Assembly (NCBI GenBank): GCA_947499565.1
Contig: CANMOV010000004.1
Coordinates: forward strand, 62,001 to 126,000
Direction: 5' to 3'
DNA: 64,000 bases
DNA from: an uncultured Croceitalea sp.
Lineage (GTDB): Bacteria; Bacteroidota; Bacteroidia; Flavobacteriales; Flavobacteriaceae
The notes beneath the pieces were generated by a model. The model saw nothing but the letters and a program-made list of their open reading frames with translations. It was not told the DNA's origin and made no database searches. Below, in pieces: positions 14,690-31,689 of the stretch; position 1 is the first letter of the stretch; each line of letters opens with the position of its first letter. The position numbers and the translations under genes were made by a program.

Positions 14690-15247
14690 CTAGATACTAA
14701 AATCATCACAATACTTCCAACCATTACTGGTTTTATTCATTGATAGGTCATCAATCCAAAAATCTTGGAGGTCTTTACCATAAAAAATAATAAAAGGTGT
14801 CTTATTATCTGCTTTATACTTCACTTTCACCTTAGCTGAATTTAAAGAAGGTATTTCTTGAACTTGCAATACTTCTTCAATTTCATACGTAAATGCTTTT
14901 GCTTTAACATTACCCCCTTTTTCAGGAACTTTTTCCATATATTCTAAAGCCTTTTCAGTTAGAGCGATACTGTATTCCTTTCCTTTGTTATAGCGTGATT
15001 TTAATTCCCGAACAAATTCCATGGTCAGATAACCATCTTCTACCAATTGCGCATACTTTCCCAATAATTCTTTATCATAATCGGTATCTCTAAAGGTTGC
15101 TTTCCCTATTCTAAAACTTGCTATTCGCTGTTCTGGATTTTTCTTTAGACATTCTTCTAGAATTTCTTCAGCATTTGAATTACTAAGATTATTTGATTCA
15201 CAAGAACAGATTAATATAAGGAGCATTGTAAAAATTATATTTTTCAT
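14690..15247 (-). CDS. Putative lipoprotein, 185 aa
   Basis: A 185-residue protein with a type II signal peptide (MKNIIFTMLLILICSCESN; lipidated Cys around residue 16). I do not recognise the family. The mature part is mixed alpha/beta with an N-terminal helix (NAEEILEECLKKNP) and a later sheet-like region containing VQEIPSLNSAKVKVKYKADNKTPF, compatible with a small envelope domain. It lies 22 bp downstream of another minus-strand lipoprotein gene and is probably cotranscribed with it from the divergent region around 16278-16401. Confidence 0.7.
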   Translation of the reverse strand: MKNIIFTMLLILICSCESNNLSNSNAEEILEECLKKNPEQRIASFRIGKATFRDTDYDKELLGKYAQLVEDGYLTMEFVRELKSRYNKGKEYSIALTEKALEYMEKVPEKGGNVKAKAFTYEIEEVLQVQEIPSLNSAKVKVKYKADNKTPFIIFYGKDLQDFWIDDLSMNKTSNGWKYCDDFSI

Positions 15248-15269: not shown

Positions 15270-16277
15270 TTAAAAAACTAGTGTTCCTATTTTTAGAGAT
15301 GGCAGCGGTTCTGCATCAAATTCTTTATAAAATTCAATCTTCCTGATGATAGCTTCAAATCGAAATCTATTTCGTCTTTTTTGTACTTGAGGCTTCCTTA
15401 ATTCGTAGGAAGTTTTGCAAAAAAGGTTAAATGGGGTTCCTTTATCTCCCCTATTTTCATAATACTCATAGATAGCCTTAGCCTCCTCTTCACTCATAGA
15501 AATGTAATGAGTAAGATGTTGCCAGCTTTTTTTGGTAATAGAACGTACATAAGCTACCGGTCCTTCCCCATAGTTTATTACCCGAATATCATTGTTAATT
15601 CCAATAGATAATCGTAACCGTTTGCTCTCGAAATCATATTCTTGAATAGTAGCTCTAGCAATACTATAGGAAATCACATCTTTTGGGTCAATGGTTTGCA
15701 ACAATTCGTTAAAGCTTCCCTGATATTTCGAATTAAATTTTGCCCTAATCTCTTTTAATTTAAACGAATTGTTTTTATAAGTCTCTATCTCATTATACTG
15801 GTCAAAAAGTTTATAATAATATTCCATTGGGGTAACATAAGGTGGTGGAAAAAAAGCAGCACATGCGTCATTAATTACAACTTTGGTATCACCATTTTTG
15901 CGTTGGTAATTTCCAAAACCGCTTCGCTCATAACCAAAAGTCTCTTTATAGTCAAAATCTTGACAAAGTTTTGTTGCAGCCAAGTAAAGGTCCTTTTGTG
16001 CTTGCTTATAAAGATTGTTCTTTTTATTTATAGATTCCGACCAATCGTATACTGATTCTGAAGGCTTATATGTGTTTTTCTCTGCTGTACTAGTTTTTAC
16101 CACCGCATTGTTTGGAGTTATATCTTTAGAGGTGTTTATAGTATCCCCCTGATTAAAAAAAGCCTCACCCTTTTTTGTAAAATCGTTTTCTTTTTGTAGT
16201 TGATTACTTTTTTGCTTTTCTGCACAAGAAATTAATACGATAGTACTTACTAGCATGGTTAAAAAACTGTTTTTCAT
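15270..16277 (-). CDS. Putative lipoprotein, 335 aa
   Basis: A 335-residue protein starting MKNSFLTMLVSTIVLISCAEK, a clear lipobox (LISC). After the signal there is a low-complexity polar linker (about residues 22-75) and then a folded domain with many aromatic and charged residues. It contains a Cys-poor core; no enzymatic motif was found and I do not recognise the family. It is divergent from the FlgO-like gene pair across 124 bp that contain the TACGGTTNNCCGTA dyad; since the dyad is symmetric it could act on this gene too, although the -7 element in this direction (TTAATTTA at the matching distance) is poor. Confidence 0.7.
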   Translation of the reverse strand: MKNSFLTMLVSTIVLISCAEKQKSNQLQKENDFTKKGEAFFNQGDTINTSKDITPNNAVVKTSTAEKNTYKPSESVYDWSESINKKNNLYKQAQKDLYLAATKLCQDFDYKETFGYERSGFGNYQRKNGDTKVVINDACAAFFPPPYVTPMEYYYKLFDQYNEIETYKNNSFKLKEIRAKFNSKYQGSFNELLQTIDPKDVISYSIARATIQEYDFESKRLRLSIGINNDIRVINYGEGPVAYVRSITKKSWQHLTHYISMSEEEAKAIYEYYENRGDKGTPFNLFCKTSYELRKPQVQKRRNRFRFEAIIRKIEFYKEFDAEPLPSLKIGTLVF

Positions 16278-16333: not shown

Positions 16334-16378
16334 TACGGTTTTCCGTAAAATGAATGAATAAAAAAATATGTAATATTG
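16334..16378 (+). promoter_or_regulatory. Regulon operator copy 1 and -7 element
   Basis: TACGGTTTTCCGTA (16334-16347) is the first copy of a dyad found at four promoters in this block. The -7-like element TAATATTG (16371-16378; one mismatch to TAnnTTTG) starts 23 bp after it, matching the 22-bp spacing at the best copies, and the FlgO-like ATG follows at 16402. Confidence 0.7.
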
Positions 16379-16401
16379 AATTCTAATCAAACTTCCAACC
16401 A

Positions 16402-17316
16402 ATGAATACCACTAAGATTCTTTCCATATTTATATTTCTAAGCTTTTTATGTGACAGCTATGCGCAAGATTTTGATACGCAATTAGAAAAGCTTGCAGAA
16501 GGTTTAGCTAAACGGATTGAAAGTAAGGGAAAGGCTAAAATAGCCGTTTGGGGTTTTTTTACAGAGAATGGGGAAAGAACTGCTCTAGGCAATTACCTTA
16601 CAGAAGATTTTTCTGTGTACCTCACTAATTTTGGAGATAATTTTGAAGTTATAGATCGTAACCATTTAAATGTACTATTAAAAGAGCATAAACTAAACGC
16701 AGATGGATATATAGACGAGAATACAGCAAAAGAATTAGGCAAAATTGTAGCTGTAGATGTAGTTATTACTGGTACTTATACCGTATTAAATTCTATAATT
16801 AAAGTAAGAGCAAAAGCCTTAGATACAGAAACAGCCCTACAATTTGCTGCTAACATGGGTAATCTTCCAATCAATGATAATATTGCTTCTTATTTAGGAA
16901 TTAGTGTAAATGGTGGTAATACTACCAATCGTGGATTTAATACGCCATTAAGTTCAAAAGAAACCATAAATAATCCTGAGACGGTAGATTCCAAATGTTC
17001 GAAAGAGAATTTTGGTAATGTCTGTTTTTATAACACCACCTCGACAAAAATAGTTTTAAGAGCAAAACACTTTCGGCAAGATGAAGGTTCATCTGTGAAC
17101 ATGACGGACATTTTTATTGACCCTGGTGAAACAAAATGTATGTATAAAATAAAGAATAGAACACTTAGCTTCTACATTGTTAAATGGGATATTTTTCAAA
17201 AAGAACTTAATGGTGGTCTATATAAATTACACCAGGACCCCACAGCAAAATATCTTTTGGACAAAGGTGAACTAAAAGTGGAAACCTGCACCTCCAAAAC
17301 CTATACTATAAAGTAA
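16402..17316 (+). CDS. FlgO/CsgG-like secreted protein with C-terminal extension
   Basis: A 304-residue protein with a signal peptide ending SYAQ. Residues 25-165 have the FlgO/CsgG-type pattern: KIAVWGFFTENGERTALGNYL, then FEVIDRNHLNVLLKEHKL, then LGKIVAVDVVITGTYTVL and IKVRAKALDTETA. CsgG relatives assemble in or at the outer membrane (curli secretion channel; FlgO is a flagellar outer-membrane lipoprotein), but this copy lacks a lipidation Cys. The C-terminal ~110 residues form a separate, Cys-containing beta-rich domain not present in the next gene. It is the first gene of a pair with a paralogue 14 bp downstream, behind operator copy 1. Confidence 0.8.
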   Translation: MNTTKILSIFIFLSFLCDSYAQDFDTQLEKLAEGLAKRIESKGKAKIAVWGFFTENGERTALGNYLTEDFSVYLTNFGDNFEVIDRNHLNVLLKEHKLNADGYIDENTAKELGKIVAVDVVITGTYTVLNSIIKVRAKALDTETALQFAANMGNLPINDNIASYLGISVNGGNTTNRGFNTPLSSKETINNPETVDSKCSKENFGNVCFYNTTSTKIVLRAKHFRQDEGSSVNMTDIFIDPGETKCMYKIKNRTLSFYIVKWDIFQKELNGGLYKLHQDPTAKYLLDKGELKVETCTSKTYTIK

Positions 17317-17330
17317 ATTACTTTTCAATT

Positions 17331-17831
17331 ATGAATCTTAAAACGGTATTAACCGCTCTTGTTATATTTCCTTTAATCCTAACAGCACAACATTTTGATA
17401 GCGGTTTGGAATCTCTTGCAGAAGAACTTGCCGAAAAGCTCAACGAAAAAGAAAAGACCAAAGTTGCTATTTGGGGCTTTTTCACAGAAAGCGATAAGCA
17501 TGAAGATTTTGGTTCGTATCTAACCGAAGATTTTTCCATTTATTTAGGTAACTATGCAACTAATTTTGGCATTATTGACCGTCCACACTTAAAAGTTATT
17601 TTAAAAGAACACCGATTAATTGCTGATGGGCTTATTGATGAAAAAACCACTAAAAAACTCGGGAAAATTAGTGCCGCTGATGCTATTATTGTAGGCACCT
17701 ACACAATTTTAGATAATAAAATAAAAATCCGTGTGCGGATATTAGATACTGAGACTGCTCTGCAGATTGGCGGAGTAATGCGTGCCTTATCTATGAATGA
17801 TGATATTGCACATTTATTAGGTAAACTCTAA
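17331..17831 (+). CDS. FlgO/CsgG-like secreted protein, short paralogue
   Basis: A 166-residue protein with signal peptide MNLKTVLTALVIFPLILTAQ and essentially only the FlgO/CsgG-like domain. It aligns throughout with the first 165 residues of the preceding gene (VAIWGFFTESDKHEDFGSYL; FGIIDRPHLKVILKEHRL; LGKISAADAIIVGTYTIL; IRVRILDTETALQ). It is therefore a tandem duplicate of the domain. The pair might form mixed oligomers at the cell envelope; this is inference from duplicated CsgG-like subunits in other systems. Its stop faces a minus-strand gene 12 bp away. Confidence 0.8.
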   Translation: MNLKTVLTALVIFPLILTAQHFDSGLESLAEELAEKLNEKEKTKVAIWGFFTESDKHEDFGSYLTEDFSIYLGNYATNFGIIDRPHLKVILKEHRLIADGLIDEKTTKKLGKISAADAIIVGTYTILDNKIKIRVRILDTETALQIGGVMRALSMNDDIAHLLGKL

Positions 17832-17842
17832 GCTTTGCTAAG

Positions 17843-18463
17843 CTAAGGATGTATTCTTTCTAATGCTTTCTGTAAAGCTTTTGCATTTGTAAAACCAGGA
17901 CCACTCTCATTAAAAAAATGTGATAATTTAGAAACCTTAGCGCCAGTAACTTTATTATAAGTCTCAAAATTAAGGTTGATTTCACAGGTGGTCATATCTA
18001 ACTGATTAGTATAAAAATTATAGGCCACCGTACCTATACAAACCAATTCTGTATTCGCAGAAGAGTCTAAATTACCAGAAAGTAATTGGTCTTTGTTGGC
18101 ATCTCCACCAACTTTAAGAACATATGAATTAAAAAAGGTTTTTCCTAAATGATTTCTAAGTGAAGCATCTAACTCGGAATTATTGTAAATATAAATGCTA
18201 GCTGTATTGGGTAAAGGTTTTACTGCATTTATCTCACTTATTTTTTCATCCCTCTTGGTTTCATCAAAACTATCGCTAATATCAGTTGCTTTATTATCTT
18301 CTGTTGTTTCTAAATCATCAGAAAGTTGAATACTTTCTGATTTTTTAAAAAAAGAGTTGAGATCTAAGCCAGATATTCTTAATAACGCAGCACAAATTAA
18401 AAGTATTGTCAATACTAAACTCAATGTGTTTTTTATTTTTCTTTGCCTACTTCTGCGCAACAT
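17843..18463 (-). CDS. Single-pass membrane protein, unknown function
   Basis: A 206-residue protein with a basic cytoplasmic tip (MLRRSRQRKIKN), one transmembrane helix (TLSLVLTILLICAALLRI), a polar linker rich in Asp, Ser and Glu (about residues 40-88) and a C-terminal extracytoplasmic domain with sequence ASIYIYNNSELDASLRNHLGKTF and LVCIGTVAYNFYTNQLDMTTCEIN. The C-terminal domain has some resemblance to the family of small CsgG/LpoB-like sensors of paired subunits but I cannot name it. It follows the next minus-strand gene by 12 bp and so is probably cotranscribed with it. Confidence 0.65.
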   Translation of the reverse strand: MLRRSRQRKIKNTLSLVLTILLICAALLRISGLDLNSFFKKSESIQLSDDLETTEDNKATDISDSFDETKRDEKISEINAVKPLPNTASIYIYNNSELDASLRNHLGKTFFNSYVLKVGGDANKDQLLSGNLDSSANTELVCIGTVAYNFYTNQLDMTTCEINLNFETYNKVTGAKVSKLSHFFNESGPGFTNAKALQKALERIHP

Positions 18464-18474
18464 TTAATTACAGT

Positions 18475-19290
18475 TTATAATAAATCATCTAAAATATTAT
18501 TGCTTTCATGACCCTCCTCTATGTATAAATCTCCTTTGTCATCAATCAAGAATTCAATATCAAAATGATTGCTTATAACATCGTAAATATCAATAGCAAT
18601 CTCTTCCTTAAATCTTTCGATGGTCATTGTGGGTATAAATAGAAGCCCCAATAAACCCATTTTTTTATTTAATAGTATTGTTTTTTTAAGTCTTTTTTCC
18701 ATTTCTATGATTCTATCGTCTAGAACCAATGTAATTAATGGTTGCAAATCTTCTTTACCCCATTTATGGATTACAGCTTCTAGTGCCTTCTTCATATGTT
18801 CATCAAAAACATCAATAATAGCATCTGTTTTAACTGATTCTGCCATGAAATTCAATTCTTTTAACAGTTGAAGGATTTGCTCAATTTTATTTGGCAATTG
18901 CAAATCAGTTTGAGATGAATTATTAGAAGTTAAATCATTATTGATAAATTTTGATAACGGTCTTGGACTATAACCTACAAGCCAAGCAATCACCTCTATT
19001 GTTTCATTTCCGTGAGGCTTATCTGTTTCACCAACTAAAAACCTTCTTATTTTTTTATAGCGGTTAATATCATTAAAATCTAAATCTGTAACAATCTCAT
19101 GTTTTAGACGCAGAAACCTTTTTAAAAATCTCTTATCACTATCTGGGCAATCTTTATAAAAAATTGTTTTGAATGCTTCTCTAATTTCGGGTAATGTAGG
19201 ATTAGGGTAGCCTTCAATAAGACCACCTTTATCCTCGTGATATTTTTTTAATATTTCTTTTCTGTATGTAGTATGCTTATCCAAAATCAA
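18475..19290 (-). CDS. Hypothetical protein, 271 aa, helical
   Basis: A 271-residue soluble protein that I do not recognise. It has no signal peptide and is mostly predicted-helical. The region NDINRYKKIRRFLVGETDKPHGNETIEVIAWLVGYSPRPLSKF looks like a compact helical domain that could bind nucleic acid or protein, and the last third is acidic (YDVISNHFDIEFLIDDKGDLYIEEG). The start is a TTG at 19288-19290 because the frame is closed upstream by a TAG and has no Met before residue ~150; the sequence immediately before it still looks coding, so an even earlier non-ATG start is possible. It lies upstream of the membrane-protein gene in the same operon. Confidence 0.55.
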   Translation of the reverse strand: MILDKHTTYRKEILKKYHEDKGGLIEGYPNPTLPEIREAFKTIFYKDCPDSDKRFLKRFLRLKHEIVTDLDFNDINRYKKIRRFLVGETDKPHGNETIEVIAWLVGYSPRPLSKFINNDLTSNNSSQTDLQLPNKIEQILQLLKELNFMAESVKTDAIIDVFDEHMKKALEAVIHKWGKEDLQPLITLVLDDRIIEMEKRLKKTILLNKKMGLLGLLFIPTMTIERFKEEIAIDIYDVISNHFDIEFLIDDKGDLYIEEGHESNNILDDLL

Positions 19291-19556
19291 ACCCCATTTG
19301 TATAGATTTTCATCCTGTTCTACCTATTTCAACCCAAAAAAGACCAGAATTTCTTTTTTACCTCTGCTATTCCTTCTTTTACAATAGAATTAATTCTTCT
19401 ATGCCTAGCTAACATAGTTAATCTTTTGATAAAAGCCAATTGAGTGGTAGTAAATAGCTCAATACTTTTTCAAAAAATCATGAATACGAAGAGTCCCCTA
19501 GAACGGCAGAGGTGATTCGATTACTGCCAATTTGAAAACCATTTAAAACCAATATT

Positions 19557-19706
19557 ATGGATAACAGGTTTTTAGGTTTGATTGTATTGTTAGCTCTTTT
19601 AATTTTTACATCTTGCGAAACCGAGAGTGTAGAGCAACAAGAAGAACTGTTAACTATTTCATCTAGTGAGGGTAGTACCACAAGCCCCAAAGACGGAAAA
19701 GATTAG
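19557..19706 (+). CDS. Small lipoprotein, 49 aa
   Basis: ATG at 19557-19559 to TAG at 19704-19706 encodes 49 residues: MDNRFLGLIVLLALLIFTSC, then a short hydrophilic tail rich in Glu, Ser and Thr ending PKDGKD. The hydrophobic helix ends in the lipobox FTSC, so it should be lipidated at Cys20 and leave a tail of only about 29 residues. It is followed within 11 bp by a strong hairpin terminator, so it forms its own transcript and is not part of the kinase operon. Its position directly before the TPR sensor kinase makes it a candidate signal or partner, but nothing in the sequence proves this. Confidence 0.65.
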   Translation: MDNRFLGLIVLLALLIFTSCETESVEQQEELLTISSSEGSTTSPKDGKD

Positions 19707-19716
19707 CAAAAAAAAG

Positions 19717-19748
19717 AAAAGGGCGCTTTGTTAAATAGCGCCCTTTTT
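19717..19748 (+). terminator. Rho-independent terminator
   Basis: AAAAGGGCGCT (19717-19727) pairs with AGCGCCCTTTTT (19737-19748) around a 9-nt loop, giving a GC-rich stem followed by a T-run. It ends the small-lipoprotein transcript just before the kinase gene. Confidence 0.85.
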
Positions 19749-19774
19749 ATATTTGTAAGGAAAATACATATGGT

Positions 19775-21688
19775 ATGAGATTAAGACAACTCTTAATAAT
19801 TGCAACTATTCTCTTTCTAATATGTGCATGTGTTCATAATAGCGATAGGGTTGAAAACAAAAATTCTTCTCGTAAACATGCAGAAAAAATAGCATTATTA
19901 CACAAAATCGACACTACTAGTAACATAAAATTACTAAACGAAATTATAAAATCATATCAGGATAAAATCTCTGATACTGTTCTTTTGCAGGCAATCTGGA
20001 AAAAGTCATCTCTTTTCAATGAAATGAATAAACAAGATTCTGTTTTAAAATATGATAGACTTTTATTGCAAGTAGCAAATAATTTTAAAAATCTAAATTA
20101 TAAAGCTAAAGCAGAATCTTATTTGGCATACGACTATCGTGAAAAACAATTGTTTGATAGTTCATTTTACTACTATCAGAAAGCTAAAAACAGTTACTCT
20201 TTAATTAAGGATAGTACTCAAATTGGTAGAAAGTTACTGGAAATGGGTAAAATACAGTATCGCAAGAACGATTTTTATGGTTCCAAAGAATCTATTACTG
20301 AAGCACTTAGTTTTTTTGATAAAATTCAAGATAAAAAATATATTATTTGGTCATTAAATGAATTAGGGAATAACTACGCAGCACTAAAGGATTATGAAAA
20401 TGCAGCGAGTAGCTATAAAAGAGCCATTAAAATGGAGAAAGACTTCACAAATAGAATCCTTTATCAAAATAATTTAGCTGTACTATACGCTGAGAGCAAC
20501 AATTATGACAATGCCATTGAAATTTTAAAAAAAATAATTGTCCTAATTCCACCTAATTTTAAAGAAGAAGAATATGCTAGGCTTATTCACAATTTAGCCG
20601 AATATAAATGGAAATTAGAAAAAACTGATATTATAAAAGAGTATTTACGTGCATTATCAATCAGAAAAAAAAGTGGTGATAAAAGAGGTCTTTTGTCTAG
20701 TTATAACAGCTTAGCGGAGTACTTCATGAATTCGAACAAAAAAAAATCTAGTAAATATGCCGACACTCTAATTAGGTTGTCAAAAAAACTTGGTATTCCA
20801 AAAGCAGAGACAGATGCATTACAAATACTTATGCAAATTGACCCAAATAACATCAGGCATAAAAATCGATATATTTTTTTGAAAGACAGCCTTTACCAAC
20901 AAGAGCTGAAAGTAAAAACTCAGTTTGCAAAATTAAGGTATGATGATCAGCAAGAAAAACAACAACTTCTAGCTTTGGAGGCAGAAACCGCAAAGCAAGA
21001 AACTCAATTGGCACAGCAAAAAACCCAAAAGGTTATTTTTCTTTCCCTAAGTACGCTATTGTTTATGGGTGGTTCCTTCTTATATTTTGTGCTACGCCAA
21101 CGCCATAAAAAAGAAAAACTTAAAGAAGTTTACAATACAGAAAAACGTATTAGCCAAGAACTACATGACGGACTTGCCAATAACATCTTTGGTTTAATTA
21201 CTAAAATACAAAGCAAAAAAAATACTCCGCAGGAAGTATTAGATAGTCTGGATACTATTTATACTACTACAAGAGAAATTTCCCATAAAAATTCTGCGAT
21301 TAAAACGGGCCATTTGTTTAAAGAAGAATTGCTAGACCTTATAGAAACCTATCAGGATCAGAAGACTAGTATACTAACAAAAGGTATCCATACCATAAAT
21401 TGGCAGCACTTAAAAGAACAAAAATGTATTGTACTACATAGATCCTTAAAAGAGCTTTTAGTAAATCTGAAAAAACATGCAAAGGCTACTTTAGTATCCA
21501 TACAGTTTCAAGAAGTAAGAAATGGTATTAAAGTGACATATAACGATAATGGTATTGGTTTAAAATCAGCTACGAATAAAGGAATTGGTCTTACGCATAT
21601 GCAATCACGAATACAAAACTTAGATGGGGAATTTAAAATTTATACTAATAAAACAAGAGGTACCAAAATAGAAATCATCCTTCCTTAA
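19775..21688 (+). CDS. TPR-containing sensor histidine kinase (NarX/HisKA_3 class), lipobox leader
   Basis: A 637-residue kinase. An N-terminal leader with a lipobox-like end (FLICAC) is followed by an extracytoplasmic set of about six tetratricopeptide units (residues ~40-390, for example SLNELGNNYAALKDYENAASSYKRAIKMEK). A coiled-coil-like stretch (QEKQQLLALEAETAKQETQLAQQKTQ) leads into one transmembrane helix (VIFLSLSTLLFMGGSFLYFVL, about 425-446). The cytoplasmic end has the HisKA_3 phosphoacceptor motif ELHDGLANNIFGL and an HATPase_c domain with N box (LKELLVNLKKHA), DNGIGL and KGIGLTHMQSRI motifs. This architecture is common in Bacteroidota and pairs with LuxR-type response regulators. 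It lies 108 bp before the response-regulator gene. Confidence 0.92.
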   Translation: MRLRQLLIIATILFLICACVHNSDRVENKNSSRKHAEKIALLHKIDTTSNIKLLNEIIKSYQDKISDTVLLQAIWKKSSLFNEMNKQDSVLKYDRLLLQVANNFKNLNYKAKAESYLAYDYREKQLFDSSFYYYQKAKNSYSLIKDSTQIGRKLLEMGKIQYRKNDFYGSKESITEALSFFDKIQDKKYIIWSLNELGNNYAALKDYENAASSYKRAIKMEKDFTNRILYQNNLAVLYAESNNYDNAIEILKKIIVLIPPNFKEEEYARLIHNLAEYKWKLEKTDIIKEYLRALSIRKKSGDKRGLLSSYNSLAEYFMNSNKKKSSKYADTLIRLSKKLGIPKAETDALQILMQIDPNNIRHKNRYIFLKDSLYQQELKVKTQFAKLRYDDQQEKQQLLALEAETAKQETQLAQQKTQKVIFLSLSTLLFMGGSFLYFVLRQRHKKEKLKEVYNTEKRISQELHDGLANNIFGLITKIQSKKNTPQEVLDSLDTIYTTTREISHKNSAIKTGHLFKEELLDLIETYQDQKTSILTKGIHTINWQHLKEQKCIVLHRSLKELLVNLKKHAKATLVSIQFQEVRNGIKVTYNDNGIGLKSATNKGIGLTHMQSRIQNLDGEFKIYTNKTRGTKIEIILP

Positions 21689-21694
21689 ACTGAC

Positions 21695-21738
21695 TACGGT
21701 TATCCGTATTCGCAGTACGTTATTATTTGTCATATTTA
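21695..21738 (+). promoter_or_regulatory. Regulon operator copy 2
   Basis: TACGGTTATCCGTA (21695-21708) lies in the gap before the response-regulator gene. The bases starting 22 bp after it, CATATTTA (21731-21738), are only a fair match to TAnnTTTG, so this promoter may be weaker or start differently. The flanking CTGAC is shared with copy 4. The location implies autoregulation of the response regulator. Confidence 0.65.
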
Positions 21739-21796
21739 CAGTAAATTCATTTATCATTTCCAAACGATAAAACTAACTTCTAAGTAGGATTATATA

Positions 21797-22465
21797 ATGT
21801 TTAAAAAGATATTAGTTGTTGAAGATTTAGATTCCGTAGGTCATGGCATTTCCATGATGTTAGAAAAAGAACTAGCAGTGCCAGAAGTAGTGCTAACGAA
21901 GTACTGTGATGAGGCCTACTTAAAAATTCAAAATGATCTACAAAATAATACGCCTTTTGACTTACTTATAACAGATCTCTCCTTTAAACATGACCATAGA
22001 CCATTAAGACTAAAATCTGGCAGAGATTTAGTTGAAAAAATAGTTGAAAAAGGGTATAAAATACCCATCATTATATGCTCTGTAGAAGAAAAAAATACTA
22101 TGATTAAAAATTTAACTGATATTGACAATGTGGTTTCCTATATACTAAAAGGAAGAGATGGGCTAAAAGAACTAAAAAAAGCTGTTTGTGAAGTCGTCAA
22201 GGGTAATACTTATTTTCCCGAAAAAATAATAACTCTAACCAAAAGAAGCCCCTCATTTGAAATAGAAAGTTATGACGTATCTCTTTTGAGACATCTTTCC
22301 AATGGATTGTCACAAAATCAAATTGCAACACTATTTATTACAAAGGGTATTTCTCCCAGTAGTTTAAGTTCTATTGAAAAACGTCTAAACAAATTAAAAG
22401 ATGTTTTAAAAGCTAGCAACAATGTGCAATTGGTAGCTAATGCAAAAGATATAGGATTAATCTGA
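21797..22465 (+). CDS. Response regulator with divergent LuxR-type DNA-binding domain
   Basis: A 222-residue regulator. The receiver domain (1-125) has the acidic pocket ILVVEDLD, phosphoacceptor Asp in LLITDLSFKHD, and Lys in YILKGRDG. The C-terminal domain (about 150-222) is a divergent LuxR/NarL-type helix-turn-helix: VSLLRHLSNGLSQNQIATLF, then SSLSSIEKRLNKLKDVLKASNNVQLVANAKDIGLI, which follows the LuxR spacing up to the final GLI. It is probably phosphorylated by the TPR kinase upstream. LuxR-type proteins bind dyads with TAC..GTA ends, and TACGGTTNNCCGTA sits at its own promoter and at three others nearby, so it is the likely controller of this block. Confidence 0.88.
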   Translation: MFKKILVVEDLDSVGHGISMMLEKELAVPEVVLTKYCDEAYLKIQNDLQNNTPFDLLITDLSFKHDHRPLRLKSGRDLVEKIVEKGYKIPIIICSVEEKNTMIKNLTDIDNVVSYILKGRDGLKELKKAVCEVVKGNTYFPEKIITLTKRSPSFEIESYDVSLLRHLSNGLSQNQIATLFITKGISPSSLSSIEKRLNKLKDVLKASNNVQLVANAKDIGLI

Positions 22466-22532
22466 CTAATAAATTTCTTTTTACTTATAATTTATTTTTA
22501 ACTCCAAGTTAAACTCAAGAATTTTTTGGTTT

Positions 22533-22576
22533 TACGGTTTACCGTAACATCCTGGATAATCAGATTAGTATGTTTG
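22533..22576 (+). promoter_or_regulatory. Regulon operator copy 3 and -7 element
   Basis: TACGGTTTACCGTA (22533-22546) is a perfect 14-bp dyad. A perfect -7 element TATGTTTG lies at 22569-22576, 22 bp downstream. This promoter controls the four-gene operon 22610-26289 and means that the in-frame start at 22526, which lies upstream of the promoter, cannot be used. Confidence 0.75.
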
Positions 22577-22609
22577 ATTCAAACGAAATCAACTAAACCA
22601 AAATCTGAA

Positions 22610-23866
22610 ATGCTCGCAAAAGCCAAACAAAATAGTATGCATTTGTATTTGCTTTGCATAATCTCATTGTTCTCGATATCGACCTCGGTTAACGGACAAG
22701 AAAAAAAAGTGCTTCGTAAACAGGACTTTTCAGAAGAAATTAAAGATTACAAGCGCAGCTCCCTTTTGTTGTTTATGCTAGAAAATCAAAAAGCAGAACA
22801 TATAGATGCTATAAAAAGCACTTTTTTACAACAAAAAATCCCTAAAAAATTTAATCCGCACACAACTAATTTACCTCCTTTTATTGTATCGGACAGTACA
22901 ATAAAAGACAAAACCAAACATATCTCCGAACAGCTTAAAGAACTTGGTGTTGCCAGACAAATCGTAGCTAAATGGTTTAATCGAAACAGTAAAGGGGTTT
23001 TTAATTTGGATTTGGTTAAACAACGAGGACTATATAATGCCAGTGATTTTGATGTGCAAATTGCTAAGCAAACCCTGCGTGGTAGCGCCATGTTAGAGGA
23101 TGCGGGCAAGCATCTTATTGGAAACACATTTATAATTGTAAATGATTATAAATATACCAATAAGGAAAATGTTGCAAAAACCGTAAAATTAGTAGCAAAA
23201 GTTGGGAGTCTGTTAAAAGGAAAAGGTGGAGAAACAGCTCTTACAGATAATTTAGCAGACACTTTTGGAAAAGGATATTTTATCCAAACCACTTCTTACC
23301 TATTTCGCCTTAAATGGGATCAAAAAGCAGCCAATTACTTTTTTGGAACCTTATGGGTAGATGAGAATAATTATGATAAAGAACGTGTAACGGATTTTGA
23401 CAAAACCGATTTCTTTACACTCGAATATGTGGGTCAGCAAAATGCTCTAGCCGATGTTTTTTCTACCAAGTACACCAAAAAAACAGAGGAAGAACTTATT
23501 TCTAGAGCCACTATAAAAGCATCTAATAGTGCAATCTCTAAACTAGAACGAAAATTTGAAGTGTTTAGAACTAAAACACCATTAATAAGTATTGAACCCA
23601 TCGCGGCTAAAATAGGCACAAAAGAAGGACTTAAAAAAGGAGATCGTTTTGAAGTTTTAGAACAAATTTTGCTTGAAGATGGTACTATAGAATATAAAAG
23701 TGTTGCAGAAATAACAGTAGATAAAAACAATATCTGGGATAATTCCTACCTGCCAGAAGAAGTGCCAAAATCTGATTCAGCACATAGCATTTTTAAAGGC
23801 AATGCAAAAAAACTATACCCAGGTATGCTAATACGATTTAAGAAAAACCTAAATATATTTAAATGA
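22610..23866 (+). CDS. Secreted protein of unknown function, operon gene 1
   Basis: A 418-residue protein starting MLAKAKQNSMHLYLL with a signal peptide ending SVNGQ; an internal ATG at 22637 would give a tighter signal peptide and is an alternative start. I exclude the longer frame from 22526 because operator copy 3 and its -7 element lie inside it. The mature protein has a helical N-terminal half (IVAKWFNRNSKGVFNLDLVKQRGLYNAS) and a core with TLRGSAMLEDAGKHLIGNTFIIVNDYK, then a C-terminal beta region containing GTKEGLKKGDRFEVLEQ, which reads like a small beta-barrel as in FlgO/CsgG partners. I do not recognise a named family, though related sequences seem to occur in Bacteroides. It overlaps the next gene by 4 bp. 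Confidence 0.75.
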   Translation: MLAKAKQNSMHLYLLCIISLFSISTSVNGQEKKVLRKQDFSEEIKDYKRSSLLLFMLENQKAEHIDAIKSTFLQQKIPKKFNPHTTNLPPFIVSDSTIKDKTKHISEQLKELGVARQIVAKWFNRNSKGVFNLDLVKQRGLYNASDFDVQIAKQTLRGSAMLEDAGKHLIGNTFIIVNDYKYTNKENVAKTVKLVAKVGSLLKGKGGETALTDNLADTFGKGYFIQTTSYLFRLKWDQKAANYFFGTLWVDENNYDKERVTDFDKTDFFTLEYVGQQNALADVFSTKYTKKTEEELISRATIKASNSAISKLERKFEVFRTKTPLISIEPIAAKIGTKEGLKKGDRFEVLEQILLEDGTIEYKSVAEITVDKNNIWDNSYLPEEVPKSDSAHSIFKGNAKKLYPGMLIRFKKNLNIFK

Positions 23867-24417
23867 CAACCAATTTCACAAAACAAACAATACTCTGCTG
23901 TACATTGCTTTTGTGCATAACCACGACCGCACAAAAAAAACAGAGATTAGCAGACAAAGATACCTATGAATGGGTCTATGACATCGAATGCTATGGGGGT
24001 ACTGCCAAAAACGGATATAAAATAGTTAAGGTTTGGTCTTACTCAAAAGAAAAAAGCGTGGCTACTACTCAAGCTAAAAAAAATGCCATTCATGGCATCA
24101 TCTTTAAAGGTTACGCTGGAGAAGGACGTATTTGTAGAGCCTCTAGACCTCTTATGAATAGGGAAATGACTGAAGAAGAATATAAAAACTTCTTTAAACA
24201 CTTCTTTTTAGACAATGGCGATTATAACCGCTTTGTTACCAATGCTACAGATTATAAAGGTGTTGCAGATGTGCAAAAACTGGTACGAAACAAAAAAGGG
24301 AAAAAGGAAAAATTCTATCAATACAAAATTGGTATAGTAGTTAGTGTAGCATCCGACGATTTACGCAAATACTTAGAAAAAGAAGATATTATTAATTCAC
24401 TAGCAAAAGGTTTTTGA
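23863..24417 (+). CDS. Secreted protein of unknown function, operon gene 2
   Basis: A 184-residue protein with a leader rich in hydrophobic residues (TILCCTLLLCITTTAQ). The mature part includes a Cys-containing beta region (WVYDIECYGGTAKNGYKIVKVWSYSK) and the conserved-looking AKKNAIHGIIFKGYAG. It has no enzyme motif and I do not recognise the family. Start codon ATG overlaps the previous stop (ATGA), and its own stop is one base before the next ATG, so the three genes are translationally coupled. A periplasmic or outer-membrane complex is plausible but not shown. Confidence 0.72.
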   Translation: MTTNFTKQTILCCTLLLCITTTAQKKQRLADKDTYEWVYDIECYGGTAKNGYKIVKVWSYSKEKSVATTQAKKNAIHGIIFKGYAGEGRICRASRPLMNREMTEEEYKNFFKHFFLDNGDYNRFVTNATDYKGVADVQKLVRNKKGKKEKFYQYKIGIVVSVASDDLRKYLEKEDIINSLAKGF

Positions 24418-24418
24418 T

Positions 24419-25354
24419 ATGAGAAAACAAACTTTTATACTAGAACTAGCGCTACTTTTTTTAACAGTTGCATTGTATGGGCAGGCAAAAAAACCAACCT
24501 TAATGGTGGTTCCTAGTGATGCCTGGTGTAATAAAAATGGATACATGATTGAGTTTGATAACCAAGGTATACTAACCAAAGTACCAGATTACACAAAGGC
24601 TGTACAAGAAAACACAGATTTGCTTTTAGTTATTAGCAAATTAAACGGTCTTATGGCAAAACGGGAATTCCCACTTAAAAATTTGGAATCTGTATTAAAG
24701 AACTTAACCAAAGACCGTGGTTTAAACGCAGTGCGTGCCTCAAGGGATAATAGTGCTTCAGTTGCAGAATCACCTGTGGATCAAATTATAAAAACTGCAA
24801 AGGCAGATATTATTTTACAGCTTACTTGGACCGTTAATAAAGTAGGCCCCGAGAGTTCAATTTCCTATAACCTACAGGGTTTAGATGCTTATACCAATAA
24901 ACAAGTTGCGACTGCCACAGGTACTGGATTACCATCATTTAGCGCTGAGCTACCTATATTGCTAGAGGAAGCTGTTGAAGAAAATATTGAAGATTTTACC
25001 TATACATTACAGGAACATTTTGATGACATGTTTAAAAATGGACGTGAAGTTACCTTGCAAATTCTAACGTGGGAAGATTGGGATGGCGATTTAGATGAAC
25101 TCTCTTTTGAAATAGAAGATTGGTTAGATTCAAATACAATTGAAGGGCGATTTTCTACAACAGATGTAACTGATACCTATGCACTTTTTGAACAAGTGCG
25201 CATACCTCTGTATAATGAAAGAGGTAGAGCGCTAGACGCACGTAATTTTTTTAGAGCCTTAAGTAAAAAATTAAGTAGCCCACCTCATAGCATCACAAAC
25301 AAACTAGCTACCGAAGGTTTAGGAAAAGTAACCCTAATCCTTGGAAGCAAATAA
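24419..25354 (+). CDS. DUF6175-like secreted protein, operon gene 3
   Basis: A 311-residue protein with a signal peptide ending LYGQ. The mature sequence opens KKPTLMVVPSDAWCNKNGY and contains ESPVDQIIKTAKADIILQLTW, LQGLDAYTNKQVATATGTG and EQVRIPLYNERGRALDARNF, a pattern I associate with the DUF6175 family of Bacteroidota; that identification is from memory and should be confirmed. The fold appears alpha/beta, similar in outline to the CsgG/FlgO/LpoB group (GxD.il.. then ..DA.T...V). Function is unknown. It is coupled to both neighbours (1 bp before, 8 bp after) and belongs to the operator-copy-3 transcript. Confidence 0.7.
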   Translation: MRKQTFILELALLFLTVALYGQAKKPTLMVVPSDAWCNKNGYMIEFDNQGILTKVPDYTKAVQENTDLLLVISKLNGLMAKREFPLKNLESVLKNLTKDRGLNAVRASRDNSASVAESPVDQIIKTAKADIILQLTWTVNKVGPESSISYNLQGLDAYTNKQVATATGTGLPSFSAELPILLEEAVEENIEDFTYTLQEHFDDMFKNGREVTLQILTWEDWDGDLDELSFEIEDWLDSNTIEGRFSTTDVTDTYALFEQVRIPLYNERGRALDARNFFRALSKKLSSPPHSITNKLATEGLGKVTLILGSK

Positions 25355-25362
25355 ATATAATC

Positions 25363-26289
25363 ATGAGAACTATACTAGTAGCATTATCCATTTTTTATAT
25401 GTTTTCTTTAACAGCGCAAGAAAACAATGATATCTTAATAGGAGTATATGTACCACCTCAAATTGAACCTATTCCTCAAGGCGCCAATAGGCTATTAGGA
25501 ACTCGTATGCTGCAACTGGTTACTGCTCAAGGTATTAGCGGGAATCAATATAGTCCAAGATTTTTTTTGGTGCCAAGAATTGCTGTTCTAGATAAAGAGA
25601 TACTACCTACAGCACCGCCAAGAGTAGTTCTAAACTTAGAATTGACCCTTCTAGTAGGCGATGGTGAGAAAGAAAAAGGTAATTACTTTCAAACAGAATA
25701 TATTACCCTTAAAGGTGTTGGGCAAAATGAGGATAAAGCCTATATCGCTGCAATAAAAACAATATCTCCTAGGAATAAAAAAATAATGGATTTCTTAGAA
25801 CAAAGCAAAAAAGAAATTGTAGCCTATTATGAAGAACATTGCGATGAGGTTAAGAAAAAGGCAGAAGCTTTACAGGCTAGAGATAAGTTAGATGAAGCTG
25901 TTACTGTTTTAGCCAATATACCTCTTTCTACATCATGCTACGAAGATAATGAGGAAGACATAAGAAATATTTATCAAAAAGCTTTAGATCAGGATTGCAC
26001 TCGAAAAATAAATGAAGCTAGAGCACTTTGGTTTGCTGACCAAACTGAAAAAGGGGCAAGAGAAGCTGGTATGCACCTATCTAAAATAGAACCAAGAGCA
26101 TGGTGCAAAGACGAATTAAATGCCTTATATGATGAAATAGCTGATAGAATAAGAGAACTAAGTAATAAAGAATGGAGTTTTAAATTAAAAAAAGTAGATG
26201 CCCGTATAGAATCTGCCCGGGAATCTCGAGAATTGGTATTAAAATCTTTAGAAACAAGACCCGATAAGGTATATCATTTAAGGTACTAA
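25363..26289 (+). CDS. Secreted protein of unknown function, operon gene 4
   Basis: A 308-residue protein with signal peptide MRTILVALSIFYMFSLTAQ. The N-terminal half looks like a beta-rich domain (ILIGVYVPPQIEPIPQGANRLL; PRIAVLDKEILPTAPPRVVLNLELTLLVG) and the C-terminal half is helical with repeated Cys-containing segments (ALQARDKLDEAVTVLANIPLSTSCYED; ALDQDCTRKINEARALW; IEPRAWCKDELNALYDE), like TPR-related helical pairs. I cannot name the family. It ends the four-gene operon and is followed by a weak hairpin at 26335-26359. Confidence 0.7.
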   Translation: MRTILVALSIFYMFSLTAQENNDILIGVYVPPQIEPIPQGANRLLGTRMLQLVTAQGISGNQYSPRFFLVPRIAVLDKEILPTAPPRVVLNLELTLLVGDGEKEKGNYFQTEYITLKGVGQNEDKAYIAAIKTISPRNKKIMDFLEQSKKEIVAYYEEHCDEVKKKAEALQARDKLDEAVTVLANIPLSTSCYEDNEEDIRNIYQKALDQDCTRKINEARALWFADQTEKGAREAGMHLSKIEPRAWCKDELNALYDEIADRIRELSNKEWSFKLKKVDARIESARESRELVLKSLETRPDKVYHLRY

Positions 26290-26334
26290 TTTAAAAAGCT
26301 AATTCACTTCTCTAAATAAATTGAAAGCTAAAAT

Positions 26335-26359
26335 AAAGTAGCTACATCCTTGCTATTTT
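26335..26359 (+). terminator. Possible weak terminator after secreted-protein operon
   Basis: AAAGTAGC (26335-26342) pairs with GCTATTTT (26352-26359) with one G-T wobble, around a 9-nt loop, and runs into a short T-run. It is AT-rich and weak, but it falls between the operon end and operator copy 4, which marks a new transcript. Confidence 0.35.
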
Positions 26360-26418
26360 CTCACTTTATCGATTAAAACTAACCTTTAATCAAAAGAATG
26401 AATCAAAAAATTGCTGAC

Positions 26419-26462
26419 TACGGTTAGCCGTAACCATTATCCCTTTTTCGTAAGTACGTTTG
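26419..26462 (+). promoter_or_regulatory. Regulon operator copy 4 and -7 element
   Basis: TACGGTTAGCCGTA (26419-26432) carries mismatched central bases but perfect TACGG/CCGTA arms. A perfect -7 element TACGTTTG is at 26455-26462, exactly 22 bp downstream as in copy 3. Transcription would start near 26470, so the barrel protein must start at the ATG at 26498 and not at an in-frame start 87 bp upstream. Confidence 0.78.
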
Positions 26463-26497
26463 GTCCATCATTAAATACAACTAAAAACCAAACAATT

Positions 26498-27013
26498 ATG
26501 AAAAAATTATTCTTCACGTTAGCTTTAGGCTTAATTTCAATAACAGGAGTTTATGCTCAAATGACGGAGTCTGGATCTTTTGGAGTAGGCTTAGCATGGA
26601 CATCATTAAACTATGGCGCATCTGCAAAGTATAATTTTACCGAAAGTCATACAGGTCAACTCATTGTAGGTTCCGCAAACTATGGCTTCTCTTTTTCTGG
26701 AGCAAGTAGTTTTTCGGTTACAGGAAGATATGCATACAATTTTGAAGAAGATGATATTGATTTTGCCACTTGGAAGCCATATCTCTATGGACAGTTAGGG
26801 TATTGGACCTATAAATATGATTTTTTAGGCAGCAATTTTAATCAAAATTCAATAGCTATTGGTGCCGGTGGTGGCATAGAATGGGGCTTCAATAATTTTA
26901 TTGATGGATTAGCCTTTAGTTTTGAACTGGGCTATACTAATATTTCATTCGATGGTATTGGTTCCATTGGAGGCTTCAATGGTGGTGGCGGTATTCATTA
27001 TTATTTCAATTAA
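26498..27013 (+). CDS. Outer-membrane beta-barrel protein
   Basis: A 171-residue protein with signal peptide MKKLFFTLALGLISITGVYAQ. The mature part is a string of amphipathic strands with glycine-rich turns (GSFGVGLAWTSLNYGASAKYNF; FSVTGRYAYNF; WKPYLYGQLGYWTYKYDF; SIAIGAGGGIEWGF; LAFSFELGYTNISFDG) ending in an aromatic residue-rich strand GGGIHYYFN, typical of 8-stranded OmpA/OmpX-like barrels. The start is chosen by the promoter position. It stands alone behind operator copy 4 and is followed by a hairpin terminator, so it is the third or fourth operon of the regulon. Confidence 0.85.
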   Translation: MKKLFFTLALGLISITGVYAQMTESGSFGVGLAWTSLNYGASAKYNFTESHTGQLIVGSANYGFSFSGASSFSVTGRYAYNFEEDDIDFATWKPYLYGQLGYWTYKYDFLGSNFNQNSIAIGAGGGIEWGFNNFIDGLAFSFELGYTNISFDGIGSIGGFNGGGGIHYYFN

Positions 27014-30138: not shown

Positions 30139-31689
30139 ATGAAAACGAAATGTAGAAACTTGCTTTTATTAATTATCATTTGTATGGGCTGTAGCGAAAG
30201 CGATAACACCTTCCAGGGAGAAGACAATAGGTCCGAATTTTTTAAACCAGTTGATCCCAAAACAGAAGTAAACCGTTTTAGCCGTGAACTCAATATCAAT
30301 GGTCAAAACATTGAAGGAGAAATGCCCATAGCTACCAATATGGACAACACAATTGTAAGTGGATTTACCACCTCTGCATCGATAACTAATGATAATTTCT
30401 TATTTCTTCCAGTAACCTTTGCTGATGAAAATAATGTTGTAGAAGCATTAGTGCATATAAAAAATGCAGACAATTACTGGAAAATACCTGTTACTCCCAT
30501 TAACAACAGTACCAATCTACAGATTGGTATTCCGAGTCACGTCTTGAACGGAACATTTATTGTAGACTATTTACTGAAAAAATCCGATGGAACCACAAGT
30601 CAGATATTAGAAACCCAAGTGGGCATCGTTTCTCCTGAAAGTGAGTGTAGTGGCTTCAGTTTTCCGACCATTAGCGGTAGTGACGGTCTTACCGTGAAAA
30701 CTTATACCTTGCCCGATATTGGTGCAGGTAATTTGACCATTACCTATAATACGTTTACGATACCTGATCGAGTAGATGTGCGCTACAACGATCAATGGGT
30801 CGAAAGTACAGGCGATTTGTTATCAGAAGGCGAAGCCCCACCGGTAAAAGAATGTCGTTCCGTTTCTACAGGAGACGGTTTCATTGGCACTGCCAACAGT
30901 TTTGAGCTGGCTTTTGATACAAATATCAGTAACAAACTTGATATTTACGTATCCGGTTGCCTTAACAACGGCACCCAATGGACAGTGACCGTAAGCTGTC
31001 CCCAAAATGATGTCACGTCTGCTTTATGGTATGAAGAATTACCCGATTGCCCTTGTTCGCTATCGGAAATACCTGAGAACAACCAAACCCCTGGTTTTGA
31101 TGGGCGATGGAGCGATTCGTTTTGTTATCAAATATTCACCGACACTTATCACTATGGCGCAGAAACCGAAATCAGATGGATACCCACTACCCAGGGTGCT
31201 GGCCAGCAATGCACGTATGACTCCAACGGCAATTTGATTACTTCTGGAATTGCAGCTGGATCACCAGATAGGAGGTCACCCGGAGGTTGCTTTCCAAACC
31301 CTGAACACACTAGTCTTGATGTAAAACCCTGGGAATCAAACAACGATTCAACTATAGCCTGTATTGAATACCTAAAACGTTGGCCATCCAATCAAGGTAA
31401 TTGTGGTAACTCAAATCCTGTCAATGATATCAACCACATAACCAATTTAATTGGCAATATGAGCTGTGAGGAAGTGACTACGCTATTTCAAATAGGGTCA
31501 TCGGCAGAAAATGCTGATTTCTCCATTGTTCCGGTCGAACTAATCTTATACCTATCCGGTCAAAATAAAAACACTCCTACCAATTTATTGGAAATGTTGA
31601 ACGCTGTGGCAAATCAATTGAATTGCAGCAACAATGATAATGAGCAATGTAAGGTTTTAGAAAAAGCCATTAAAAATTTAACCAGCTGA
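30139..31689 (+). CDS. Lipoprotein with an AMOP-like domain
   Basis: A 516-residue lipoprotein starting at ATG 30139 (MKTKCRNLLLLIIICMGCSE; lipidated Cys near 18). Residues 180-290 form a beta-sandwich-like region (TIPDRVDVRYNDQWV). Residues about 297-423 match the AMOP domain layout seen in animal isthmins and mucin-4: LPDCPCSLSEI, a W, then GAGQQCTYDSNGNLITSG, AGSPDRRSPG, LDVKPWE, and RWPSNQGNCG, with Cys at about 304, 306, 329, 358, 384, 408 and 422. One Cys of the usual CC pair is missing (QQCTYD). The C-terminal ~90 residues are helical. Such domains are adhesion-related in animals; their role in bacteria is unknown. It sits 5 bp after a barrel gene, suggesting surface display. Confidence 0.72.
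   Translation: MKTKCRNLLLLIIICMGCSESDNTFQGEDNRSEFFKPVDPKTEVNRFSRELNINGQNIEGEMPIATNMDNTIVSGFTTSASITNDNFLFLPVTFADENNVVEALVHIKNADNYWKIPVTPINNSTNLQIGIPSHVLNGTFIVDYLLKKSDGTTSQILETQVGIVSPESECSGFSFPTISGSDGLTVKTYTLPDIGAGNLTITYNTFTIPDRVDVRYNDQWVESTGDLLSEGEAPPVKECRSVSTGDGFIGTANSFELAFDTNISNKLDIYVSGCLNNGTQWTVTVSCPQNDVTSALWYEELPDCPCSLSEIPENNQTPGFDGRWSDSFCYQIFTDTYHYGAETEIRWIPTTQGAGQQCTYDSNGNLITSGIAAGSPDRRSPGGCFPNPEHTSLDVKPWESNNDSTIACIEYLKRWPSNQGNCGNSNPVNDINHITNLIGNMSCEEVTTLFQIGSSAENADFSIVPVELILYLSGQNKNTPTNLLEMLNAVANQLNCSNNDNEQCKVLEKAIKNLTS

Follow-up and report, generated by a model that had tools for sequence, protein, structure and literature searches.

A putative TACGG-N4-CCGTA operator ties a DUF5932 response regulator to four promoters in a flavobacterial genome and, in most relatives examined, lies within kinase codons

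Introduction

Response regulators of the NarL/FixJ (LuxR/GerE) family use operators with TAC/GTA ends, and a site centred at -41.5 from the transcription start is the classical position of a class II activator. In Flavobacterium psychrophilum, the -7 box of sigma-A promoters lies at -12 to -5, according to the main text of Guerin 2021 (PMC9723704). Here we analysed a stretch of 64,000 nucleotides from an uncultured Croceitalea sp. (Flavobacteriaceae; contig CANMOV010000004.1, positions 62,001 to 126,000), hereafter the window, in which a dyad with such TAC/GTA ends, TACGG-N4-CCGTA, precedes the gene of a response regulator starting at 21797 and three neighbouring sets of genes. An earlier reading of the window (the sequence-only reading) had proposed that the four promoters form a self-regulated regulon governed by this regulator. 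We conclude that the 21797 regulator and the dyad very likely constitute a self-activating envelope-gene switch over four promoters. The terms "TACGG", "LuxR" and "palindrom" do not occur in the main text of Guerin 2021, and no description of such a system appeared, by title or abstract start, in the open-access literature searched.

Results

We searched the window and the whole genome for the dyad pattern TACGGNNNNCCGTA. The four copies reported by the sequence-only reading are the sole exact matches in the window and lie where it had placed them, against a mean of 0.01 expected; 0 of 100 shuffles reached four. From the 3,883,653-base genome, only these 4 exact matches were recovered, all in the window (2 for the reversed control pattern). 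As claimed, all four are intergenic (0 of 4 inside called genes) and close together: they span 10.1 kb, for which the random-site probability is ~7e-8 in 3.88 Mb (analytic; 0 of 2,000,000 draws). The boxes also stood as described, i.e. a perfect TAnnTTTG 22 bp past dyads 3 and 4, a one-mismatch form 23 bp past dyad 1 and a weak one with two mismatches 22 bp past dyad 2. With up to two mismatches in 16 positions, dyad-N22-box has 10 matches in the genome (control, 3), namely the 2 perfect promoters, 3 views of the other two dyads and 5 unrelated places with 2 mismatches each. The features of the locus are the following (HTH, helix-turn-helix domain):

14690..15247 (-): probable lipoprotein, after gene 15270-16277; by eye; G001 homologue 57%
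15270..16277 (-): probable lipoprotein, divergent from dyad 1; by eye; G001 homologue 37%
16334..16347: predicted operator dyad 1, exact pattern, between divergent genes 15270-16277 (-) and 16402-17316 (+)
16371..16378 (+): -7 box TAATATTG, one mismatch, 23 bp past dyad 1
16402..17316 (+): CsgG/FlgO-like protein, signal-peptide-like start; profile scan, start by eye
17331..17831 (+): second CsgG/FlgO-like protein, signal-peptide-like start; profile scan, start by eye
19775..21688 (+): sensor histidine kinase; TPR repeats, HATPase_c, HisKA_3 under the cut-off
21695..21708 (+): predicted operator dyad 2, exact pattern, intergenic, 102 bp before the regulator start
21731..21738 (+): weak -7 box CATATTTA, two mismatches, 22 bp past dyad 2
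21797..22465 (+): response regulator; receiver (D10, D60, K118) and four-helix HTH (158-218)
22533..22546 (+): predicted operator dyad 3, exact pattern
22569..22576 (+): -7 box TATGTTTG, 22 bp past dyad 3; predicted start near 22581
22610..23866 (+): first gene of the operon; no Pfam family, signal-peptide-like start
23863..24417 (+): no Pfam family, signal-peptide-like start
24419..25354 (+): DUF6175 protein, signal-peptide-like start
25363..26289 (+): no clear Pfam family, signal-peptide-like start; homologue after DUF6175 in G025, G093 and G040
26419..26432 (+): predicted operator dyad 4, exact pattern
26455..26462 (+): -7 box TACGTTTG, 22 bp past dyad 4; predicted start near 26467
26498..27013 (+): small barrel-like protein (by eye), signal-peptide-like start; no Pfam match, NCBIfam match weak and far under the cut-off

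We then compared 47 loci of the regulator family, the window included, in which a dyad could have up to one mismatch in ten. They hold 130 dyads, of which 88 are intergenic, in ~18% of the sequence. The 42 genic ones comprise 33 embedded in the kinase gene (32 found by script, plus L089, whose regulator start is called differently) and 9 others, one of them perfect. The dyad is therefore not scattered inside genes, neither in the own genome nor, the kinase copies apart, in relatives. Seen from both strands, the 88 intergenic dyads give 176 views; a perfect TAnnTTTG follows at a gap of 22 in 46 of these, and no other gap between 0 and 59 has more than 1. By site, a perfect box at a gap of 19-26 follows 48 of the 88 dyads (45 of them at 22), compared with 34 of the 2574 intergenic positions drawn at random; a one-mismatch box follows 27 further dyads, 22 of them at 22. 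The logo of a wider set of 112 intergenic sites, picked for having both dyad and box (no more than one mismatch in either), reads tTACGG-N4-CCGTAAgg-N19-TAnnTTTG and has no TTG at the expected place of the -33 element. Given the -7 box position published for another species, the dyad would lie at -48 to -35 with its centre at -41.5; its predicted placement is that of a class II activator site. The viral sites described below independently support the predicted phase of +1: an ATG stands exactly four bases past the box, at the implied +1, in 24 of 115 (next offset, 14), many of them near-identical.

A regulator bound at -48 to -35, where the site overlaps the -33 region, could also block RNA polymerase. 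We regard such repression as unlikely: there is no -33 element, as in activator-dependent promoters, and the spacing to the -7 box is near-invariant, which a repressor does not need. That the dyads are RNA hairpins or terminators instead of operators is barely credible. In the logo, an A and then a G are favoured after the dyad, with no T run; the -7 box keeps a fixed distance; and one conserved copy lies within coding sequence. In favour of hairpins, one dyad followed by a T run (L084:10337) is a likely terminator stem of the preceding RNA. At that place, operator and terminator may share one palindrome.

We next examined how far the dyad follows the regulator family. Of 120 family genomes, 72 have a regulator relative at E <= 0.001 and 47 at E <= 1e-30. 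The composite of dyad, 22 bp and box occurs at 57 sites in 31 of the 120 genomes (reversed control, 1), that is, in 28 of the 47 genomes with a regulator at E <= 1e-30 and in 3 of the 73 without (p = 9e-12). For adjacency, 48 regulators of at least 140 bits in the 47 loci were set against 434 genes more than 3 kb away. A dyad lies within 140 bp upstream of 35 of the 48 regulators (controls, 14 of 434) and within 480 bp downstream of 35 of the 48 (controls, 15 of 434), and 43 of the 48 have at least one nearby. The dyad is thus conserved in related genomes, and its conserved copy upstream of the regulator's own gene points to autoregulation. More distantly, the composite is found in 57 of 246 genomes of an order sample, where among the matches listed there is no control match and one other family, f5, beyond the own family; in a class sample it is found in 10 of 295 genomes (control, none), with 2 of 284 outside the order, both in f55. 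In one genome (G076 contig 1; L197 and L198), several near-identical composites with identical flanking letters recur over ~46 kb and look like a dispersed repeat.

The half-sites may vary with the recognition helix of the regulator. TACGG/CCGTA is the usual partner of helices like SLSSIEKRLNKL. Downstream sites of a clade with SESTIDKKVSRL read TACAG/CTGTA in L102 and L116 and have one side changed in L099 and L114. The window's own genome encodes a paralogue (L115, G000:C3:238064-238720) with the helix SVRSIEAHIS, and TGTGG-N4-CCGCA is found both in its kinase gene and downstream, each time with a perfect box at 22 bp. Several other loci have TGTGG/CCGTA in the kinase gene.

The composite was also found in 109 IMG/VR stretches, in which 115 sites were read, 100 of them intergenic by our own open reading frame (ORF) calls; many are near-copies, and this count carries no chance expectation. 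A hidden Markov model of the regulator HTH detected five stand-alone proteins in these stretches (L249, L277, L296, L302 and L319). Four of them (L277:3669, L296, L302:6896 and L319:1537) begin exactly four bases past the box of a composite, which is where the transcript is predicted to start; the one in L249 does not. All five match phrog_6776 (E = 1e-15 to 9e-19). The HTH of the window regulator matches it weakly (E = 2e-4), the regulator itself being no phage protein. Among 50,697 phage records, 69 contain relatives, and every one of these is named as a Flavobacterium phage.

The regulator's own promoter has an unusual place in the family. The sequence-only reading had put the copy upstream of the regulator in intergenic DNA, which is right for the window, an exception in this respect. 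In most relatives examined, this dyad lies in the 3' end of the kinase gene, mostly 88-110 bp ahead of the regulator start. There it covers codons of the peptide N[T/A]ENR (ACG GAA AAC CGT, for example), and TAnnTTTG, or something close to it, again follows at 22 bp. The conserved peptide (N[T/A]ENR...F) fixes part of the bases, so that the dyad could be its by-product. To weigh this, 46 kinases were recoded synonymously with local codon usage, 400 times each (two further loci have no kinase call). Perfect embedded dyads are observed in 17 of 46, against 0.09 expected, and dyads with at most one mismatch in 33 of 46, against 1.41 expected. Moreover, the codon pattern AAY RCN GAR AAY MGN AT occurs at 89 places in the 120 genomes, 24 beside a regulator (judged against 55 listed regulator places) and 65 elsewhere, where the fifth codon is Arg in 37 and Ser in 28. 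The dyad codons are used at 20 of the 24 places beside a regulator vs. 0 of the 37 elsewhere (Arg only; p = 1.7e-12). In addition, loci with TVSR, TASR, TESR or TETR in the kinase still hold the dyad. The recoding and the same peptide elsewhere argue against a coding coincidence, and we hold a mere by-product of the peptide to be very improbable.

Beyond the family sample, all 6 of the f5 loci fetched have the embedded copy, as do 2 of the 3 g121 loci with a regulator (L192 and L196, not L195); L193 (g122) has the downstream promoters and no embedded copy. In f55, a regulator-like gene in L209 is flanked by composites, one inside the kinase-like gene immediately ahead of it and one behind it; no such pair was seen in L210.

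In the window, the kinase reads THMQSRI at the position of the embedded site and holds no dyad there. The intergenic dyad is 102 bp before the regulator start, compared with 103-108 in six of the seven nearest tree relatives and 123 in L068 (distances by our own start calls), and all seven carry the kinase-embedded copy. In the regulator tree, the window and a Croceivirga locus with the embedded copy form a pair (96/98) inside a clade of seven rows (95/87); the bootstrap was not yet fully converged. The simplest reading would be that dyad 2 was relocated from the kinase gene to the gap. Another locus, L097, has an intergenic dyad at 96 bp, and such a kinase was not called directly upstream.

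We tentatively extend these observations to a broader proposal, to which we give somewhat less than even chances. The class II promoter of the regulator may be encrypted in the ATPase-region codons of its partner kinase, across two families of the same order and at a single locus checked in a family outside it, and be intergenic where, as in the window, the kinase lost these codons. Phages and prophages would share this operator code, and some would carry an HTH protein that lacks the receiver (phrog_6776), so that phage genes and host regulon could read each other's activator.

The 21797 protein has 222 residues. Its Response_reg match is barely over the Pfam cut-off (30.5 vs. 30.2 bits), and its C-terminal match, the only one at the HTH end, is DUF5932, with none to the GerE profile. 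In an alignment of 54 sequences, D10, D60 and K118, i.e. the acidic pocket, phospho-acceptor Asp and Lys of a receiver, are invariant; among these 54 regulators, Pfam finds Response_reg in 50, DUF5932 in 31 and GerE in 5. In the AlphaFold2 model (mean predicted local distance difference test score 94), a receiver is joined to a four-helix HTH (158-168, 173-183, 190-203 and 209-218). Among solved structures, Foldseek ranks spr1814 and RcsB highest and places LiaR and VraR within the first 20; the RcsB and LiaR matches span the full length of the model. By sequence (phmmer against the PDB), there were 8 matches for the regulator, the best to a spindle protein (E = 0.013, taken as chance), with RcsB at E = 0.27. 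On the model, the regulator folds and would work like members of the NarL/FixJ family, though Pfam files it otherwise; the label "LuxR-type" given by the sequence-only reading is right for the structure, which is LuxR/NarL-like, and does not fit the Pfam name of the DNA-binding domain, DUF5932 and not GerE. DUF5932 is unnamed in the open-access literature searched. The kinase at 19775 has a lipobox-like start and one transmembrane segment ahead of its kinase part (by eye). Divergent from it lies a gene without a Pfam family (18475-19290, -), homologues of which (22-52% identity, some low-scoring) occur near the kinase in L050, L072, L191, L192, L195 and L196.

Regarding the targets, the dyad is also found upstream of CsgG/FlgO genes 66% and 63% identical to that of the window, in G001 (L050) and G109 (L069), respectively. 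Their boxes are of the same weak ATTG type, TATTATTG at 23 bp in L069 and AATTATTG at 22 bp in L050. In G001, the homologues of genes 15270 and 14690 follow a different dyad promoter; dyad 1 may therefore serve both directions. A fixed cargo was rejected, as the downstream genes vary widely. Of 54 first genes listed, 43 were scanned. The 11 others were two regulators, a kinase, a very long protein, 15270-16277 (scanned separately) and ORFs that were short or doubtful. The commonest families among those listed are CsgG (3), HNH (2) and LpoB (2) of 43; each family matching PADLOC concerns 1 of the 43, and we claim no defence function. As the cargo differs elsewhere, the cassette appears to govern whatever adjoins it. 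DUF6175 was likewise rejected as a fixed target: 6 of the 12 genomes (out of 120) encoding it have no regulator at E <= 1e-30, and the gene runs give weak support. In G093 (L184), a dyad with a one-mismatch box heads a same-strand gene run ending in a DUF6175 pair; in G025 (L183), an opposite-strand ORF breaks the run toward the pair; in G040 (L185), the run extends to the contig end.

Behind the first downstream dyad, many relatives show a putative short RNA unit, with a 5' end near GCTATTAGTT, a GGGA motif and an intrinsic terminator (L071, L074, L077, L083, L084, L090, L106-L108, L112 and others, mostly 7-60 bp past the regulator stop; L073 and L104 also by eye). A terminator within 110 nucleotides follows 18 of 52 post-regulator dyad promoters (control, 33 of 478), and [CT]TATTA lies within 18 nucleotides of the box in 16 of 52 (control, 1 of 478). 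In the window, no such RNA was seen in the gap from regulator to operon. The covariance model of this unit, with 5 pairs, is weak, and no search was made with it; at gathering thresholds, Rfam found only two transfer RNAs in 7 loci and nothing in the window. Elsewhere in the window, a bacterial protein at 30139-31689 (+) matches the AMOP domain (Pfam, E = 1.2e-7, scanned from 30082).

Discussion

Sequence statistics and comparison show the putative operator, the constant gap to its box, its conservation and its link with the regulator family. As far as sequence can tell, the window regulon is real, and 21797 is very probably its regulator; the proposal of a self-regulated regulon is supported at that level, and nothing that could be computed refuted it. 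In the mechanism that we propose, the TPR kinase at 19775 would sense an envelope signal and phosphorylate D60 of the regulator. A dimer of the latter would bind TACGG-N4-CCGTA directly at -41.5, the downstream half taking the place of the -33 element, and recruit sigma-A RNA polymerase to TAnnTTTG 22 bp on. In this way the regulator would activate both its own gene and the three adjacent gene sets, whose products appear to be exported. The envelope reading is suggested by the signal-peptide-like or lipobox-like stretches (by eye) with which the targets start.

Several results weigh against this switch. Five of the 48 regulators have no dyad on either side. A perfect composite is missing from 19 of the 47 genomes with a regulator and present in three genomes (G017, G054 and G119) that have no clear one. 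In the window, the -7 box of the regulator is poor, with its two mismatches, and that of the first copy is imperfect, so that autoregulation there is argued from position and from the relatives. Among the half-sites, L100 retains TACGG/CCGTA downstream despite a SESTIDKKVSRL-type helix, and in L088, L110 and L111, whose helices are near the common type, the kinase-gene site pairs TGCGG or TGTGG with CCGCA; because of these exceptions, the link between helix and half-site is a lead, not proof. Phage V165 has a similar HTH and 0 promoter sites, even with up to two mismatches and one more in the box allowed. As a side observation, the best regulator match in G017 is a fragment with stops.

The three genomes that have the composite without a clear regulator, and the fact that 21797 is tied to the dyads by sequence, would leave room for another regulator binding them. 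We consider this quite improbable: the dyads co-occur with the 21797 family and adjoin its genes, and viral stand-alone HTH proteins with a like helix are encoded right behind the same promoter. The differing half-sites of some paralogues with other recognition helices, with their exceptions, argue more weakly for 21797.

The analysis gives a predicted operator, promoter architecture and regulon for a two-component family that is common among these bacteria (found in 47 of the 120 genomes sampled) and whose DNA-binding domain, DUF5932, is catalogued as one of unknown function. Any flavobacterial genome can be searched for this operator. The promoter embedded in the kinase gene offers a clear testable case of regulatory DNA over conserved catalytic codons, with many genomes as control.

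Compared with the described systems, the regulator resembles RcsB, VraR and LiaR of the NarL/FixJ family in its receiver and four-helix HTH, as found by Foldseek. It differs in its HTH domain, which is DUF5932 in the window protein and in 31 of 54 relatives and GerE in 5 of 54, and in the use of a Bacteroidota TAnnTTTG promoter with a specific putative operator, TACGG-N4-CCGTA. With flavobacterial sigma-A promoters (TAnnTTTG at -12 to -5), the promoters share the -7 box and a fitting predicted start position; here, however, there is no -33 element, and the dyad stands in its place at a fixed spacing. Finally, phrog_6776, a family of phage proteins of unknown function, has a related HTH and the same promoter ahead of it in four viral loci, but no receiver domain, and phage V165 is without such a promoter. 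For this phage family, which had no assigned function, the comparison suggests transcription activation.

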